DNA from: Aliarcobacter butzleri
GTDB taxonomy: Bacteria; Campylobacterota; Campylobacteria; Campylobacterales; Arcobacteraceae
Assembly (NCBI RefSeq): GCF_900187115.1
Contig: NZ_LT906455.1
Location: forward strand, 1,922,001 to 1,986,000
Reading direction: 5' to 3'
Length of the DNA: 64,000 nucleotides
Below, in pieces: positions 2,703 to 11,122 of this stretch; position 1 is the stretch's first letter, and each line of letters starts with the position of its first letter. The position numbers and the translations under genes were made by a program. The notes under the pieces were generated by a model, which was not told the DNA's origin, ran no database searches, and saw only the letters and a list, made by a program, of their open reading frames with translations.

Positions 2703-3836
2703 ATGATGACTTCTACGATAGATTTATCTAAATTAACGGCAAACGATGATTTGACACCAGTATTAGGTGGTTATTGGCCTGGTATTCAAATTTACTATCC
2801 GCCAATTAAGTTTAATCCACTTGATGGAACATATGAAAGTATGGAACAAGCAAAATTAAGACTTCAAAAACATGCTTATAAAACAAAAGCTCATACAGTT
2901 TTATTTGACTTAGAGGATGGTTGTAGACAAAAAGCCATGAGTAGAGAGTTATTAATTCAAGAATTACCAAAATTCCCTGAAAGAAACTTTCAAATAGCTG
3001 TAAGAATAAATCCTTTTAGAACTGAAGAGTATGAAGAAGATTTAAAAATGTTAAAACAAATTCACCAATATATTGATGTTATTGTTTTAGCAAAAGCTGG
3101 AGAAATTTATGGAAGTGCTGAAATCAGAGATTTATCATCTTGGTTAGTTTCAATTGGAAGTAAATTAACAATTCAACCAATTATTGAACATCCAAAATCA
3201 CTTCAAATTGCTGATAGATTGATGGAATATTCAACTGTTAAACATATTGTTTTTGGTATTCACGATTTTTCAAAAGCAATGGCTTATAAAATCACTCCAA
3301 AAGGATGGATTGATGAACTACAAACATTCTTTAATATTCTTACATTAGAAGCAAGAATAAAAGGAAAAGGAGTTATTGGTGGAGTTGAAGTTATGCTTAC
3401 ACCACATTCATTACCTGATTCATGTGTAGAGAAAAAAGATATAAGAAGATGGTTAGATTTACATGGTGATGAAGCAAGTAGACATGTTTATGCTCATGCT
3501 ATTAGAGAAAATGCTATGGGATTAACTGGAAAACAAGTTATTACTCCAAACCATATCAATATTTGTAAGGTTGCATTTACTCCATCTCCAAATGAGATTG
3601 CAAAAGATGTTTCTATTTTAAAAGCGGCTATTGAAGCTGATGCACTTTTAAGTGGTGCTATTAGATATGAAGGTGAAATGTTAGATCCACCAATGTTTGG
3701 AAAATCTTTACAAAATATCTTAAGAGCATATGCATTAAATAGTTTAACAAAAGAAGATGAACTATTTGCGTTATCTGTTTTAAATAAAATGCCAATTCAT
3801 ACGTTTAAAGAAAACTGGCCATATGGTCAACTGTAA
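2703..3836 (+). CDS. CitE/HpcH-HpaI-family CoA-ester lyase (malyl-CoA lyase-like), first of three
   Basis: A 377-residue TIM-barrel protein of the citrate lyase beta / malyl-CoA lyase superfamily. Such enzymes cleave or form 3-hydroxyacyl-CoA esters using a divalent metal. The landmarks are intact: FDLEDGC (around 69-75), the CoA-contacting arginine in AVRINPF, the metal-ligand glutamate in PIIEHP, and the second metal ligand, aspartate, in GIHDFSKAM. It is longer than typical CitE (about 290) because of an N-terminal stretch containing GGYWPGIQIYYPP and an internal MLTPHSLPD segment, neither of which I can assign. Two adjacent ATGs (2703, 2706) follow a GAAAGG site. It opens an operon with a CoA ligase fusion, a MaoC hydratase and another lyase, so the substrate is probably a C4 or C5 dicarboxyl-CoA. 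The exact substrate cannot be read from sequence. Confidence 0.8.
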   Translation: MMTSTIDLSKLTANDDLTPVLGGYWPGIQIYYPPIKFNPLDGTYESMEQAKLRLQKHAYKTKAHTVLFDLEDGCRQKAMSRELLIQELPKFPERNFQIAVRINPFRTEEYEEDLKMLKQIHQYIDVIVLAKAGEIYGSAEIRDLSSWLVSIGSKLTIQPIIEHPKSLQIADRLMEYSTVKHIVFGIHDFSKAMAYKITPKGWIDELQTFFNILTLEARIKGKGVIGGVEVMLTPHSLPDSCVEKKDIRRWLDLHGDEASRHVYAHAIRENAMGLTGKQVITPNHINICKVAFTPSPNEIAKDVSILKAAIEADALLSGAIRYEGEMLDPPMFGKSLQNILRAYALNSLTKEDELFALSVLNKMPIHTFKENWPYGQL

Positions 3837-3852
3837 AATTTAGGAGATTAAA

Positions 3853-6372
3853 ATGAGTCAATTAGTTAAATTAGAAGTACCAGAATTTTTAAATATTGGT
3901 GTCGCTTGTACATCTTCACATATTGGAACAACAAAAGAAAATAATATTGCTATGATCATCGAAGATGATAAACTTGGAACTGATGAAATAACTTATAAAG
4001 AATTAGCAAAAAAATCTGACCAAGTTGCAAACTTCTTTACAGGAATTGGATTAGAGCCAAGAGATAGAGTATTAGTATGTTTAAAAAACTCTTTAGCATA
4101 CCCTATTTCATTTTTTGGAACAATGAAAGCTGGAATTATTGCAGTACCTACTTCAACACTCTTAAGTGGTAGCGAAGTTAAATATTTAGCTGAAGATTCT
4201 CAAGCAAGAGCTATTGTATTAAGTTCAACTATGTATGAAAACTTAGTTCCATATTTAGAAAACTTAGATAACTTAAAAACTATTGTTGTTGCAGGAATTG
4301 ATAGTGTTGAAAATTTAAAAAAGCCAAAAGATATAAATGTTTACGCTTTAAATCAAATTTTTAAAACAATCGATTCAACACCAAATCACTATAACTCAAA
4401 ATCAGGAGAACCTGCTTATTTAGTATATACATCAGGAACAACTGGTTATCCAAAAGGTGTTTTACATTCACATAGATCATTAGTTGGTAGAAAACCAGCA
4501 ACTGATTATTGGTTCGATTTTAAAGAAAACGATAGAATCATGCACTCTGGGAAATTTAACTGGACATATGTTTTAGGTTCTGCACTTATGGACCCATTGT
4601 ATAATGGTCATACAGTTATTGCATACGAAGGAGCTAATGATGCTTCAACTTGGATTGATTTAATTAAAAAACACCAATGTACAATTTTCATTGGAGTTCC
4701 AACAATTTATAGACAAATCATCCAAAAAACAGACTTTACACTTGATGATTGCCCATCATTAAGATATTGTATGAGTGCAGGTGAGCATTTATCAGATGAG
4801 ATGTTAGGACTTTGGAGAGAAAGATTTAAACAAGATATTTATGAAGCAATTGGAATGAGTGAATGTTCTTATTATATTTCTCACTCAAAATATAATCCTA
4901 TTCGTCCAGGAAGTGCAGGTTTCCCACAACCAGGACATATTGTAAAACTTATAAATCCAGAAACTTTAGAAGAAGTTGGATTAGAAGAAGAAGGAATGAT
5001 TTGTATTGGAGAAGATGATCCAGGATTATTCTTAGAATATTGGCAATTAGAAGAAGAAACTGCAAAATCAAGACACGATGGATATTTCTTTACAGGTGAT
5101 TATGCTAGAAAAGATAAAGATGGATATATCTGGTTTATTGGAAGAAAAGATGATATTATCAACACATTTGGATTTAGAGTAAGTCCACATGAAATTGAAA
5201 GAGTTGTAAAAACTCACCCATTAGTTGCTGATTGTGTTGCTTTTGGACTTGATATTGAAAAAGAGAAAACTTTAGTTGCTATTGCTGTTGTTGGTCATAC
5301 TGAATTAACAAAAGAGCAAGAAGAAGAGATTTTAGCATTCTCTCAAGCAAATTTAGCAAAATATAAAGCACCAAAAAGAATCTTTACTATGAAAGATTAT
5401 CCAAGAACTAAAAATGGTAAGGTTCTAAGAAAACAACTAGTTAAAAATTTAAATGATTTAGAAAAAGCAAAAATCACTGGGCAAGAAATAGTTGAATATA
5501 AAGCAAGAAGATCTATGTTACTTATTCCTTCATATAATAAACATAATGTAGAAAAAGCAAAAACTGTTCTAGCTGATACAGTAATTTTTGACCTAGAAGC
5601 AATTTTACAAGAACAAAGAGAAGTTGCTAGACAAACAATAAAAGAAGTTTATAAAGAACAAGGTTCAAAATTTGGTGAAAGTGAAAGAGTTTTAAGAATA
5701 AATAATCTTGGAAGTGAAGATTTAAAAAAAGATTTAGCTTTAGCAAAAGAGATTGAATTGGATGGATTATTATTTTCTAAGATTCAATCAAAAGATGATG
5801 TTTTAGAGGCAGTTGAATTAATAAATGAAGTAAATCCTGATCTTACACTTATGATTATGATTGAAACTCCTCTTGCAGTTTTAAATATACATGAAATTTG
5901 TGCAGCTAGTCCTCAAGTTGAAGTTGTTGTTGTTGGTTCAAACAAACTTGCAAATAGACTTCAAATAGACATAAAAAGAGGTTCAAAAGCAATGTTCAAC
6001 TACCTATCACAAATTGCACTAGCTTCTAAAGCTTATGGAAAAACTGTAATTGATGGTCCACATTTTGATGTTAAAGATGAGTTTGCTTGTGAAGATTCAA
6101 CAAAAGATGCATTTAACTTAGGATTTGATGGAAAATGTTTAATTCATCCTGTTCAAATAGAGTATATAAATGATATTTTTACTCCAAAACAATCTGAAGT
6201 TGAAGATTATGAAGATATGATAGCAAAATATGAAGAAGCAACTAAAGAAGGAAAAGAAGTAATTTTACATAATGATAAATTAGTAGATTCTTCAAAAATC
6301 AAATGGGCTAGAAAAATGATTAGATTGTATGAAACATACAAAGCTTTAGGTCAAAATCTATTTGGTAAATAA
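3853..6372 (+). CDS. AMP-forming acyl-CoA ligase fused to a degenerate CitE-like domain
   Basis: An 839-residue fusion. Residues 1-535 are an AMP-binding acyl-CoA synthetase. They carry the phosphate loop YTSGTTGYPKG (about 190-201), the adenine-site region YEAIGMSE (about 330), the hinge GRKDDIINTFGFRVSP (about 433-448) and the C-terminal catalytic-lysine motif TKNGKVLRK (about 519-527). Residues 550-839 are a complete CitE/malyl-CoA-lyase barrel (MLLIPS start, LRIN arginine, MIETPLA glutamate, KCLIHPVQ near the end). In that barrel the usual DLED reads DLEA, and the metal-binding aspartate of the GxxD motif is replaced by lysine (VGSNKLAN). This second half may therefore be structural, CoA-binding or regulatory rather than catalytic. 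An AGGAG site precedes the ATG, and 16 bases separate it from the gene before. The acid activated is unknown; malate, citramalate, mesaconate or propionate fit the neighbours. Confidence 0.85.
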   Translation: MSQLVKLEVPEFLNIGVACTSSHIGTTKENNIAMIIEDDKLGTDEITYKELAKKSDQVANFFTGIGLEPRDRVLVCLKNSLAYPISFFGTMKAGIIAVPTSTLLSGSEVKYLAEDSQARAIVLSSTMYENLVPYLENLDNLKTIVVAGIDSVENLKKPKDINVYALNQIFKTIDSTPNHYNSKSGEPAYLVYTSGTTGYPKGVLHSHRSLVGRKPATDYWFDFKENDRIMHSGKFNWTYVLGSALMDPLYNGHTVIAYEGANDASTWIDLIKKHQCTIFIGVPTIYRQIIQKTDFTLDDCPSLRYCMSAGEHLSDEMLGLWRERFKQDIYEAIGMSECSYYISHSKYNPIRPGSAGFPQPGHIVKLINPETLEEVGLEEEGMICIGEDDPGLFLEYWQLEEETAKSRHDGYFFTGDYARKDKDGYIWFIGRKDDIINTFGFRVSPHEIERVVKTHPLVADCVAFGLDIEKEKTLVAIAVVGHTELTKEQEEEILAFSQANLAKYKAPKRIFTMKDYPRTKNGKVLRKQLVKNLNDLEKAKITGQEIVEYKARRSMLLIPSYNKHNVEKAKTVLADTVIFDLEAILQEQREVARQTIKEVYKEQGSKFGESERVLRINNLGSEDLKKDLALAKEIELDGLLFSKIQSKDDVLEAVELINEVNPDLTLMIMIETPLAVLNIHEICAASPQVEVVVVGSNKLANRLQIDIKRGSKAMFNYLSQIALASKAYGKTVIDGPHFDVKDEFACEDSTKDAFNLGFDGKCLIHPVQIEYINDIFTPKQSEVEDYEDMIAKYEEATKEGKEVILHNDKLVDSSKIKWARKMIRLYETYKALGQNLFGK

Positions 6373-6381
6373 GGAGAGAAA

Positions 6382-7440
6382 GTGTCTAAAATAAATATGG
6401 GTAATTTTTTTGAAGATTTTTCAATTGGTCAAAAAATAGTTCATCCACTTCCTAGAACAATAAGTGAAGGAGATGTATCTTTATACATCGCTTTTACTGG
6501 TTCTAGATTTGCTCTACACTCTTCTGATTTAGTGGCAAAGCAAATGGGATATGATAAAAGACCACTTGATGATATTTTAATGTTTCACCTAACATTTGGA
6601 AAATCTGTACAAGATATCTCTTTAAATGCAATTGCAAATTTAGGATATGCAGAAATGGCTTTTCCTAATCCTGTATATGTTGGAGACACAGTTTCTATGA
6701 CTTCGACTGTTATTGGATTAAAAGAGAATTCAAATGGTAAAAGTGGAGTTATTTATGTTCACTCTATTGGTGTAAATCAAAATGGTGCTGTTGTACTTGA
6801 TTTTAAAAGATGGGTAATGGTTCATAAAAAAGACCACACAAATTTGAGTGGAGTAAATGAAGTTCCAACTTTTGCAAAAACAACACCAATTTCGCAAATT
6901 AATATTCCTACTATTAAATGTGTTGATACAGATTCAACTGGTGGAAAATATTTCTTTGAAGATTATGAAATAGGTGAAAGACTTGACCATCCTGAAGGAA
7001 TAACTGTTGATAATAGTGATCATACACTTGCAACTAAGTTATACCAAAACAATGCAAAAGTACATTTCAATGACCATATGATGAAAAGTACACCAATGGG
7101 TCAAAGACTAATGTATGGTGGAATCATTATTTCAATGGCAAGAGCTATTTCATTTAATGGTTTGCAAAATGCACAATGGGTATGTGCTATAAATAGTGGA
7201 GCTCATGCTAATCCTACGTATGCTGGTGATACTATTTATGCATATACTGAAATTTTAGAAAAAATTGAAGTAAATAGAGAAGATATTGGATTATTAAGAG
7301 TTAGAACTATTGGATTAAAAAATCAAACTCCAAAAGAGACTCCAACTCCAAAAAATGAAGATGGTAAATATTTACCAAATGTTGTTTTAGATTTAGATTA
7401 CACTATTGTAATCCCAAAAAAAGTTACTGAAAAAAAATAA
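6382..7440 (+). CDS. mch: Mesaconyl-CoA hydratase-like double hot-dog (MaoC) protein
   Basis: A 352-residue protein with two MaoC-type hot-dog halves, the second starting near residue 165 (YFFEDYEIGERLDHP). The first half carries segments I recognise from mesaconyl-C1-CoA hydratase (beta-methylmalyl-CoA dehydratase): EGDVSLY, GSRFALHSSD, PLDDILMFHLTFGK, ISLNAIANLGYAE and IGLKENSNGKSG. In the ethylmalonyl-CoA pathway and the 3-hydroxypropionate bicycle that enzyme interconverts mesaconyl-C1-CoA and beta-methylmalyl-CoA. The start is GTG, set by an AAGGAG site just downstream of the ligase stop. Lying between a ligase-lyase fusion and a lyase, it most likely supplies or consumes the lyase substrate. 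An itaconyl-CoA or other branched enoyl-CoA hydratase role is the main alternative. Confidence 0.8.
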   Translation: MSKINMGNFFEDFSIGQKIVHPLPRTISEGDVSLYIAFTGSRFALHSSDLVAKQMGYDKRPLDDILMFHLTFGKSVQDISLNAIANLGYAEMAFPNPVYVGDTVSMTSTVIGLKENSNGKSGVIYVHSIGVNQNGAVVLDFKRWVMVHKKDHTNLSGVNEVPTFAKTTPISQINIPTIKCVDTDSTGGKYFFEDYEIGERLDHPEGITVDNSDHTLATKLYQNNAKVHFNDHMMKSTPMGQRLMYGGIIISMARAISFNGLQNAQWVCAINSGAHANPTYAGDTIYAYTEILEKIEVNREDIGLLRVRTIGLKNQTPKETPTPKNEDGKYLPNVVLDLDYTIVIPKKVTEKK

Positions 7441-7472: not shown

Positions 7473-8456
7473 ATGACACACCCAAGCGAAGCTTTATTTG
7501 AAAATGGTAAATCTTTACCAATCATCCCAACTTGTGAACACTTTGCAGGAAGCGAAAAGCTAATCCTAAAAGGTTTTGAAATGCAAAAAAAATTGGGTCC
7601 AGTTTTTGATATTACTTGTGACTGCGAAGATGGTGCAGAAACTGGTAAAGAAGTTGAACACGCAAATATGATTGTTAGAGTTGTTAATTCTGCTGAAAAT
7701 CCATATGGTATGGCAGGAACTAGAATTCACGACCATTCACATCCAGATTGGAGACAAGATGTTGATATTTTAGTTCCTGGTGCTGGTGAAAAATTAGCAT
7801 ATATCACATTACCAAAATCAACTTGTTATGAAGATGCAAAAACTCAAATTGAGTATATTCAAGCAGTTGCAAAAAAAGCTGGAATTAAAAGAGAAATTCC
7901 TATTCACGTATTAATTGAAACTCATGGTGCATTACAAGATGTAGAAAAAATTGCAACTTTACCTTGGTTACAAGTTTTAGACTTTGGTTTAATGGACTTT
8001 GTTTCAGGATACCAAGGAGCAATTCCAGCAATTAATATGAGAAGCCCAGGTCAATTTGATCATAGATTAATTGGTGCTGCAAAAGCTAGAGTTGCACAAG
8101 CTGCAATTCAAAATAAAGTTATTCCTGCACACAACGTAACTTTAGATTTAAAAAATCCATACCAAACTTATAAAGATGCTGAAAGAGCAAGAAATGAGTT
8201 CGGATTTATGAGAATGTGGTCAATTTACCCAACACAAGTTCAAGCTATCGTTGATGCTATGAAACCAGATTTTACAGAACTTGAAGCTGCTCAAAATATC
8301 TTAATTAAAGCTCAAGATGCTGAATGGGGACCAATCCAATATGATGGTGAGTTACACGATAGAGCAACTTATAGATACTTCTGGGAATTAGTTCAAAGAG
8401 CTAAATTCTCTGGTGCTAATTTACTTGAAGAAACTGAAAAAAGATTTTTTGCTTAA
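7473..8456 (+). CDS. CitE-like CoA-ester lyase, third lyase of the operon
   Basis: A 327-residue protein of the HpcH/HpaI aldolase and citrate lyase beta superfamily, from a different subfamily than the first gene of the operon. It shows DITCDCEDGAE in place of the DLED motif and retains the metal-binding glutamate (HVLIETHGA) and aspartate (DFGLMDFVSG). It ends with an RMWSIYPTQVQAI segment equivalent to the IHPxQ region. An AAAGG site precedes the ATG. I recall proteins of this type with the same opening (MTHPSEALFENGK) in beta-proteobacteria, often near MaoC hydratases, but know of no firm biochemical name. Probable role: reversible cleavage of malyl-CoA, beta-methylmalyl-CoA or citramalyl-CoA. 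It is the last gene before a stem-loop. Confidence 0.8.
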   Translation: MTHPSEALFENGKSLPIIPTCEHFAGSEKLILKGFEMQKKLGPVFDITCDCEDGAETGKEVEHANMIVRVVNSAENPYGMAGTRIHDHSHPDWRQDVDILVPGAGEKLAYITLPKSTCYEDAKTQIEYIQAVAKKAGIKREIPIHVLIETHGALQDVEKIATLPWLQVLDFGLMDFVSGYQGAIPAINMRSPGQFDHRLIGAAKARVAQAAIQNKVIPAHNVTLDLKNPYQTYKDAERARNEFGFMRMWSIYPTQVQAIVDAMKPDFTELEAAQNILIKAQDAEWGPIQYDGELHDRATYRYFWELVQRAKFSGANLLEETEKRFFA

Positions 8457-8632: not shown

Positions 8633-10126
8633 ATGAGTAAAAAAATCACAGAACAAGACATTATAGATTCAGTTGCATCTGCCTGTCAATATATTTCATT
8701 TTACCATCCAGAAGATTTCGTAAAAGGAATGGTTGAAGCTTACGAAAAAGAAGAAAGTGAAGCTGCAAAAAATGCTATCGGGCAAATTTTGATTAACTCA
8801 AAAATGTGTGCTATGGGTCATAGACCCCTTTGCCAAGATACAGGAAGTGTAAATATCTTTATAAGAATTGGGTTAAAAGCTAATTTAGATATTTCAAGAA
8901 ACCTAGAAGATATTTTAAATGAAGGTGTAGCTAAAGGTTATACTGATCCAGATAACACTTTAAGATATTCTGTAGTTGCAGATCCAGCAGGAAAAAGAAC
9001 AAATACAAAAAATAATACTCCAGCAGTTATTCATATAACAACTGATAATTCTGATGAATTAGATATCACTGTTGCTGCAAAAGGTGGAGGAAGTGAAAAT
9101 AAATCTAAATTTACAGTTTTAAATCCAAGTGATAGTATTTATGATTGGGTTATGGATAATGTTAGACAAATGGGTGCAGGATGGTGTCCTCCAGGGATTT
9201 TAGGTATTGGTATTGGTGGAAATCCAGAAAAAGCTATGCTTTTAGCAAAAGAGTCTTTAATGGGACATGTTGATATTCATGAATTAAAAGCAAGAGGTCC
9301 TCAAAATGCTTTAGAAGAGTTAAGATTAAAACTTTATGAAGATATCAATAAAGTTGGAATAGGTGCACAAGGTTTAGGAGGATTAACAACTGTTTTAGAT
9401 GTTAAAATCTTAGATTACCCATGTCACGCAGCTTCACTTCCAGTTGCTATGATTCCAAACTGTGCAGCAACAAGACACATTCACTTCAAATTAAAAGGTG
9501 ATGGACCAGCAATATTTAAAAACCCATCTTTAGACCTTTGGCCAGATATTGAACTTCCAATGGATACTATTAAAAGAGTAAATATTGCCGATTTAACAAA
9601 AGAAAAATTACAAGAGTTTAAATCAGGTGATACTTTATTACTTTCAGGAAAAATTTTAACAGCACGTGATGCTGCTCATAAAAAAATTGTTGAATATAAA
9701 AATGCAGGAAAACCACTTCCAAATGGTGTTGACTTAAAAGACAGATTTATCTACTACGTTGGACCAGTTGATCCAGTAAGAGATGAAGTAGTAGGACCTG
9801 CAGGACCAACAACATCAACAAGAATGGATAAATTTACTAAAGATATGATGGAAATCGGTATCATGGGAATGATTGGAAAAGCTGAAAGAAAACAACCAAC
9901 TATTGATTTAATAAAAGAATACAAATCTATTTATTTAATTGCAACTGGTGGAGCAGCTTATTTAATCTCTCAATCAATTAAAGGTGCAAAAACTTTAGCA
10001 TTTGAAGAACTTGGAATGGAAGCTATTTATGAATTTGATGTAGTTGATATGCCTGTTACTGTTGCTGTTGATACAGAAGGTAACTCTATTCATACAACTG
10101 GACCAGCAAAATGGAGAACTATCTAA
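8633..10126 (+). CDS. fumA: Class I (iron-sulfur) fumarate hydratase, possible mesaconase
   Basis: Cytoplasmic hydro-lyase converting fumarate to malate in the TCA cycle. The 497-residue single chain has the class I layout. It includes GHRPLCQDTG (about 62-71) and YPCHAASLPVAMIPNCAATRH (around 261-281), whose cysteines are the expected [4Fe-4S] ligands. The C-terminal half starts with DTLLLSGKILTARDAAH and contains GPTTSTRMDKF. Some class I fumarases also hydrate mesaconate to citramalate (family knowledge). That matters here because the preceding operon encodes mesaconyl-CoA hydratase-like and lyase proteins. It has its own promoter and a strong terminator, so plain TCA-cycle duty is equally compatible. 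Confidence 0.9.
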   Translation: MSKKITEQDIIDSVASACQYISFYHPEDFVKGMVEAYEKEESEAAKNAIGQILINSKMCAMGHRPLCQDTGSVNIFIRIGLKANLDISRNLEDILNEGVAKGYTDPDNTLRYSVVADPAGKRTNTKNNTPAVIHITTDNSDELDITVAAKGGGSENKSKFTVLNPSDSIYDWVMDNVRQMGAGWCPPGILGIGIGGNPEKAMLLAKESLMGHVDIHELKARGPQNALEELRLKLYEDINKVGIGAQGLGGLTTVLDVKILDYPCHAASLPVAMIPNCAATRHIHFKLKGDGPAIFKNPSLDLWPDIELPMDTIKRVNIADLTKEKLQEFKSGDTLLLSGKILTARDAAHKKIVEYKNAGKPLPNGVDLKDRFIYYVGPVDPVRDEVVGPAGPTTSTRMDKFTKDMMEIGIMGMIGKAERKQPTIDLIKEYKSIYLIATGGAAYLISQSIKGAKTLAFEELGMEAIYEFDVVDMPVTVAVDTEGNSIHTTGPAKWRTI

Positions 10127-10244: not shown

Positions 10245-10285
10245 ATAAATTAACTTTTTGTTTTAAAAAATTATAGGATATATTG

Positions 10286-11122
10286 ATGAATTTATTGGAA
10301 GATTTAAAAGATTATTTAGGATTTGCAGTTGCAGGAAACTTCGCAAATCATCTAGGAGAAGCTGGGGAAGCAGATGAATTTTCAGTAATCCAAACAACTG
10401 AAAAAGATGCTCCTAAAGGACTTTTTCCTTTTTATATTAAAAACCATAATAGTTTTTTAGGAACATATCCAATATGTGATGAGATTATTTTAACTCATGG
10501 TAGAGAAGAAGATAACTTACAAATTGAAGCAGAAGTTGCATTGATTTGCGATTTTGTATATGAAAATGAAAAAATTATAGACATAATTCCAAGATATTTT
10601 GCAGCATTTAATGACTGCTCTCTTAGAGTTCAAGATGGAAATAAATTAAGTTGTAAAAAGAATTGGGGAGAAAAAACTAAAGGAATTTCTCAAGATATTA
10701 TCGAAATTGATAATTTCACTGAAAAAGGAATATTAAGTAAATATCATATCTCTTCTTTTATTAAAAGAGATGGAATAGTATATGATTATGGAACTACAAG
10801 TGCGGTTAAATCATATAGTTATTTTTTTGAGAAGCTAAAAAATTGGATGGTTGAAAAAATAAATACACAAGAAGATTGTGGACCACTTGAAGAACTTGGG
10901 CAGTTTTTAAAAGATGCTCACAAAGCAAAAGGTATTTTAATCGCAGCAGGTGCAACAGCTTATACAGATTTTGGTAAAAAAAACTTTTTGAAAAAAGGTG
11001 ATGAGATTTTTGTATATGTTTACAATGCTCGTGCTCATAGTTTCAATGACATTATGAATGATATGTGTGGAGTAGATACATATCTAGGACAGTGTTCAAA
11101 ACTTCATCAAATAGTTCAATAA
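10286..11122 (+). CDS. Uncharacterised DUF5718-like protein
   Basis: A 278-residue soluble protein without signal peptide or membrane segment. It resembles the campylobacterotal DUF5718 family as I remember it, and a segment LQIEAEVALICDF recalls the acidic metal-site pattern of fumarylacetoacetate-hydrolase folds; that fold assignment is weak. Cysteines are scattered (CDEI, DCSLR, CGPLEELGQ, MCGVDTYLGQC). The ATG at 10286 is preferred over the in-frame TTG three bases earlier because the AGG at 10275-10277 is correctly spaced. The gene is alone between its own promoter and a hairpin shared with the convergent chemoreceptor. Function unknown. Confidence 0.7.
   Translation: MNLLEDLKDYLGFAVAGNFANHLGEAGEADEFSVIQTTEKDAPKGLFPFYIKNHNSFLGTYPICDEIILTHGREEDNLQIEAEVALICDFVYENEKIIDIIPRYFAAFNDCSLRVQDGNKLSCKKNWGEKTKGISQDIIEIDNFTEKGILSKYHISSFIKRDGIVYDYGTTSAVKSYSYFFEKLKNWMVEKINTQEDCGPLEELGQFLKDAHKAKGILIAAGATAYTDFGKKNFLKKGDEIFVYVYNARAHSFNDIMNDMCGVDTYLGQCSKLHQIVQ

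Follow-up and report, generated by a model that had tools for sequence, protein, structure and literature searches.

What could a CitE-like lyase barrel do at the end of a CoA ligase once it has lost residues of its catalytic metal site? This question is raised by an open reading frame (3853-6372, plus strand) in a 64,000-nucleotide stretch of Aliarcobacter butzleri DNA (contig NZ_LT906455.1), referred to here as the window. In its 839-residue product, an intact CoA ligase of the AMP-forming type is followed by a CitE-like barrel of full length. Pfam matches were found to AMP-binding (residues 42-397, E 1.6e-72), AMP-binding_C (447-523) and HpcH_HpaI (PF03328, residues 553-766), the last covering the whole profile (1-221/221). 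The features of the fusion and of its operon are collected in Table 1.

Table 1. Features of the fusion gene and its neighbours, in window coordinates
Feature	Position	Strand	Basis
CitE1, 377 aa, CitE-like lyase	2703..3836	+	FDLED/VRIN/IIEHP/GIHD/MLD, expected active-site residues by inspection
AMP-forming acyl-CoA ligase domain, residues 1-530	3853..5442	+	Pfam AMP-binding, AMP-binding_C; core motifs intact
ATP-binding P-loop YTSGTTGYPKG, residues 192-202	4426..4458	+	translation; nearly all positions invariant in 31 fused relatives
Predicted catalytic A10 lysine K523 (PRTKNGKVLRK)	5419..5421	+	invariant in 31 fused relatives
Ligase-barrel linker, residues 531-548	5443..5496	+	pLDDT < 50 at residues 543-552 of the full-length model
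Putative CitE-like pseudo-lyase barrel with C-terminal lid, residues 549-839	5497..6369	+	Pfam, predicted structure
DLEA, D580-A583, matching D42-L-E44 of malyl-CoA lyase (MCL), D45 missing	5590..5601	+	gap in every fused alignment row
R615, equivalent to MCL Arg76, kept	5695..5697	+	R 69, K 4 of 73
E671, equivalent to metal ligand Glu141	5863..5865	+	E 68, D 3, A 1, Q 1 of 73
K698, replacing metal ligand Asp168	5944..5946	+	K 54, N 9, T 7, S 1, A 1, Q 1; D 0 of 73
D812, equivalent to lid Asp299, kept	6286..6288	+	D 73 of 73
MaoC-type mesaconyl-CoA hydratase/beta-methylmalyl-CoA dehydratase	6382..7440	+	Pfam MC_hydratase; PDB 4e3e, 8hgn beta-methylmalyl-CoA dehydratase
CitE2, 327 aa, second CitE-like lyase	7473..8456	+	CEDG/TRIH/IET/GLMD/LHD by inspection
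Class I (Fe-S) fumarase, possible mesaconase	8633..10126	+	next to the operon in some relatives only

The ligase half carries both AMP-binding domains, the P-loop, the Asp and Arg motifs and the A10 lysine that characterize the ANL superfamily. The catalytic role of K523 is presumed from the ANL family in general. Among 31 fused relatives, the P-loop, D416, R431 and K523 are invariant or nearly so, and because of this near invariance the ligase half of the fusion looks active. As to its specificity, none of the 25 NCBIfam models among the matches listed reached its cut-off.

Both sequence profile and TIM-barrel/lid fold place the C-terminal part in the CitE-like superfamily. Modelled alone, its 294 residues gave a confident AF2 barrel with lid (pLDDT 91.8, pTM 0.88), whose best PDB matches were human CLYBL (TM 0.85) and the malyl-CoA lyase of Rhodobacter sphaeroides (TM 0.81), in line with the full-length barrel claimed by the first-pass annotation. 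The full-length AF2 model was poor (pLDDT 73.5) and too weak to show the domain interface, and a domain arrangement taken from it was therefore dropped.

Residues were mapped on the R. sphaeroides enzyme (MCL), in which Mg2+ is bound by Glu141 and Asp168, the metal waters are held by Glu44 and Asp45, and Arg76 and the lid residue Asp299 are the proposed catalytic residues (PMC3832036). The four metal-shell residues have been described as absolutely conserved across the CitE-like superfamily, and Mg2+ or Mn2+ is required for catalysis (PMC3832036). In the window protein D42, E44, R76, E141 and D299 of MCL correspond to D580, E582, R615, E671 and D812, all kept, so that the glutamate of MIET and the arginine of LRIN had been correctly recognized as retained. 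The metal ligand D168 corresponds to K698 in a column without gaps (VVGSNKLAN against VMGTSDLAK), which upholds the substitution first proposed, and D45 has no equivalent. The change from DLED to DLEA had also been noted, and the second aspartate is indeed gone; the apparent alanine substitution is explained most parsimoniously by loss of the single Asp residue, a deletion common to the fused members, because the spacing to the invariant arginine is shorter by one.

Across 73 distinct fused domains Asp168 is replaced without exception while Glu141 is mostly kept, and the water-holding pair is incomplete, with the Glu44 equivalent present in 71 of 73 and the Asp missing. Alignments of the fused clade revealed no new conserved acidic residue within the metal motifs; the acidic positions enriched in this clade (623, 747, 774 and 802) all lie outside them. 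Loss of the metal site in the fused barrel is thus strongly supported, as far as alignments can tell. In parallel, R553, D734-G735, K761 and H765-P766 are conserved across the fused, split and intact groups, and R615, E671, D580, D734, K761 and H765, mostly equivalents of active-site residues, are kept in nearly all members.

It had also been suggested to look for the domain pair and its lysine in other genomes. The pair was found widely, but the lysine is replaced by N, T, S, A or Q in 19 of the 73 domains. It is common among Arcobacteraceae, yet unfixed even there, and the weight originally laid on it was not supported, the metal position being variable. Five Arcobacter- or Halarcobacter-labelled members (L068, L091, L093, L095 and L111) have N or T at this position. 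With K, N, T, S, A or Q at the metal position, the lysine was rejected as a conserved new catalytic group.

A sequencing error or strain quirk was rejected as well, with copies of the fusion in all 30 same-genus genomes searched (84-99% identity, one copy being split in two at contig ends) and in further relatives. The fusion was found in other Arcobacteraceae, though not in all genera of the family, and beyond them in Sulfurospirillum, in MAGs of gammaproteobacteria and in a single Nitrospirota-labelled MAG titled Thermodesulfovibrionales. The latter (L104) is the sole fusion with this label and the single match in that phylum, of which 296 genomes were searched, and it is possibly a mis-binned contig. 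The order CitE1, ligase-pseudolyase fusion, MaoC and CitE2 was identical in 21 of 21 loci checked, which belong to three phyla if record titles are followed; neighbouring fumarase, BioD-like and DUF5718 genes were found at only part of these loci.

Elsewhere in the gammaproteobacteria, this cluster carries the degraded barrel as a gene of its own, in most cases immediately after a ligase gene that is likewise separate. This gene starts 8-23 bp past the ligase stop in L167, L168 and L170, and the same succession was found in L208-L210 and L212; in L213 the barrel lies with MaoC and CitE2, apart from the ligase and CitE1. An 853-codon open frame in L167 was considered as a fusion and rejected, since it holds two separate genes. 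The metal shell is broken in all eight of these cluster-linked, non-fused homologues: Glu44 is replaced by H, Y or G in 8/8, Asp168 by N in 6/8 and the lid residue by Q in 6/8, while L212 and L213 still have Asp168. As every fused domain has Asp in the lid and most stand-alone ones have Gln, the two forms may differ in their job. Among plasmids, the stand-alone form had no close relative, the best among the matches listed reaching 36%. The degraded barrel occurs as its own gene in some gammaproteobacteria and as part of a fusion in Arcobacteraceae, Sulfurospirillum and further lineages.

All 26 related barrels outside the cluster keep Glu44, Glu141 and Asp168 and have Glu in the lid, the mark of the malyl-CoA thioesterase (Mcl2) group (PMC3832036); the fused domains have Asp there (73/73). 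The barrel groups with Mcl2-like sequences in a tree that contains no characterized thioesterase and in which long branches were flagged, so that an Mcl2-like ancestry is supported but not proven. One of these intact homologues (L211) falls together with the pseudo-lyases in a clade with support of 100/99. A constraint of all pseudo-lyases to one clade was not rejected (p-AU 0.39). An order of events in which water-shell residues were lost first and Asp168 later is only suggestive because of the long branches. A related cluster with an intact barrel is found in L177 and L178, where homologues of the ligase (52-54%) and of MaoC (53-58%) lie near an intact Mcl2-like gene and more CitE-type lyases; CitE1, CitE2 and the degraded barrel were not found in these 13-kb stretches.

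In a class-wide sample of 369 gammaproteobacterial genomes, CitE1 (match at E <= 1e-60) was present in six, and these are the very genomes that have the degraded barrel; among 259 Campylobacterota genomes, CitE1 and the fusion likewise occur in one and the same set of 14. These counts take in related genomes, so they are not independent and few events stand behind them. Over 1,436 pairs, the barrel had a median dN/dS of 0.17 and the ligase one of 0.13. With a ratio of about 0.17, the barrel is judged to be maintained and functional. Essential catalytic residues (the metal ligand in 73/73) are lost, the predicted fold is kept and selection is purifying, which is what a pseudoenzyme displays and agrees with the initial description of a pseudo-lyase joined to a ligase.

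The neighbouring genes give a metabolic frame. CitE1 and CitE2 have the expected residues by inspection, consistent with the claim that the two other lyases of the operon are intact; the best PDB matches of CitE2 (3qqw and 3r4i) were deposited as citrate lyases or putative citrate lyases. From sequence, Miller et al. 2007 proposed in their passages on this cluster that it interconverts glyoxylate and propionyl-CoA with pyruvate and acetyl-CoA (PMC2147049). The MaoC likeness, the two complete lyases and the fumarase agree with that proposal as worded there, class I fumarases being able to double as mesaconases (PMC4682846). A DUF5718 gene (10283-11122) lies downstream of the fumarase and is near the operon in several relatives. 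No methylaspartate ammonia-lyase was found in the A. butzleri genome, and a search of it for isocitrate lyase gave a single short match (64 bits, in a frame of 316 codons), which may be a methylisocitrate lyase.

The reading that we prefer, and to which we give about even credence, is that of a metal-dead pseudo-lyase that makes the ligase oligomeric and, by binding a CoA ester, serves regulation or hand-over. Catalysis would then reside in the ligase half only, which would turn a dicarboxylic acid, most likely the C5 acid mesaconate or citramalate, into its CoA ester, and the fusion would merely look bifunctional. The ancestor of the barrel would be an enzyme of the CitE superfamily, from its malyl-CoA-thioesterase-like branch. 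Once recruited to the operon of the ligase, the barrel would have lost the Mg2+ shell and, in one lineage, become fused to the ligase. It would neither cleave nor hydrolyze CoA esters any more; its swapped lid would assemble the ligase into trimers, as CitE-type barrels do (PMC3832036), and its pocket would bind the CoA ester, either for product regulation of the ligase or to hold the ester ready for the hydratase and for both intact lyases. Trimerization and CoA-ester binding are proposed because the lid and the residues common to intact relatives are kept. The putative roles named at first, namely holding of the CoA product, gating of its transfer to the two lyases and allosteric sensing, are compatible with these data. 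A broader and somewhat more tentative proposal is that metal-dead CitE pseudo-lyases form an undescribed family and that a mesaconate/citramalate-CoA ligase, encoded in a four-gene operon for C5 dicarboxylates, has one of them as its obligate CoA-ester-sensing or -holding subunit.

Several other explanations have to be weighed. The barrel could be a pure scaffold, for ligase trimers or for docking of the ligase to CitE1, CitE2 or MaoC, and bind no CoA ester. The conserved fold and lid, the freedom of the metal position to vary among K, N, T, S, A and Q, the co-occurrence with CitE1 and the trimerization of CitE-type barrels through swapped lids (PMC3832036) all suit a scaffold, but R615, E671, D580, D734, K761 and H765 are kept beyond what a bare scaffold needs, and this account is doubtful. 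Some chemistry may also persist in the fused barrel, possibly as residual lyase or thioesterase activity, because most fused members retain R615, E671 and E582. An enzyme that is active without metal, for instance a thioesterase or, among Arcobacteraceae, a lyase assisted by the lysine, would explain why the equivalents of Arg76, Glu141 and the lid Asp are largely kept and would fit nearest intact relatives that resemble malyl-CoA thioesterases by their lid Glu. This is improbable, since the varied replacement residue implies that no single new catalytic group was selected family-wide, most stand-alone forms have Gln in the lid, and the characterized members need Mg2+ or Mn2+ (PMC3832036).

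A conventional Mg2+ lyase in which another residue or a water stands in for Asp168 would make the fusion an ATP-dependent citramalate lyase, comparable to ATP-citrate lyase. Joining a ligase to a C-C lyase is sensible for the pathway, E671, R615 and D812 are kept, and the 2007 genome paper listed the fusion among possible malyl-CoA lyases in its account of the cluster (PMC2147049). Even so, the D168 equivalent is lost in every fused domain and that of D45 is also gone, the enriched acidic positions are outside the metal motifs and the operon already has two complete lyases, which makes this lyase quite unlikely. Finally, a decaying domain without function would match the lost catalytic residues and the lower identity of distant barrels to that of the window protein (50-58%, against 71-76% for the ligase), but it was rejected on a dN/dS of about 0.17 and, given full-length open frames family-wide and a confident fold, is very improbable.

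If the preferred reading of a pseudo-lyase bound to the ligase is true, it would add a natural pseudoenzyme partner of a CoA ligase in central carbon metabolism. The superfamily has been described as keeping its metal site without exception (PMC3832036), and a conserved branch appears here to have lost it. Moreover, intact, partly degraded, stand-alone and fused forms of the barrel are all found, which opens a test of whether a dead lyase controls a CoA ligase or couples it to later steps. It also concerns an operon for which the 2007 description of the cluster put forward a pathway on sequence grounds (PMC2147049).

The closest known system is AB1918 of Arcobacter butzleri RM4018, described by Miller et al. 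2007 as a CaiC-CitE fusion in the cluster ab1917-ab1921; its domain order and cluster layout match those of the window fusion, so that a ligase-CitE fusion was already noted in that account (PMC2147049). There, the CitE domain was treated as a possibly working malyl-CoA lyase, and those passages make no mention of lost metal residues, of a stand-alone form or of a spread outside Arcobacter (PMC2147049). The fusion and cluster have thus been known since 2007 from that source (PMC2147049), and the dead metal site is apparently new. Titles and abstracts in the open-access literature, a scope outside which most subscription journals fall, described no metal-dead CitE family. Mcl2-type malyl-CoA thioesterase-like proteins, the function of which is inferred from the lid Glu (PMC3832036), are the nearest intact group in the trees and have a complete metal site with lid Glu (26/26), whereas the fused domains have a lid Asp and no metal Asp. 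The R. sphaeroides malyl-CoA lyase and human CLYBL share with the fused barrel its barrel/lid fold and the equivalents of Arg76, Glu141 and the lid Asp299; the fused barrel differs from both by the absence of D168 and D45 equivalents and by being joined to a ligase. ATP-citrate lyase and propionyl-CoA synthase are CoA ligases fused to later steps, their extra domains being active. By description, they resemble the window fusion in joining a CoA ligase to a domain for its CoA-ester product; the extra domain is active in these two enzymes, while in the window fusion its catalytic metal site appears to be lost.
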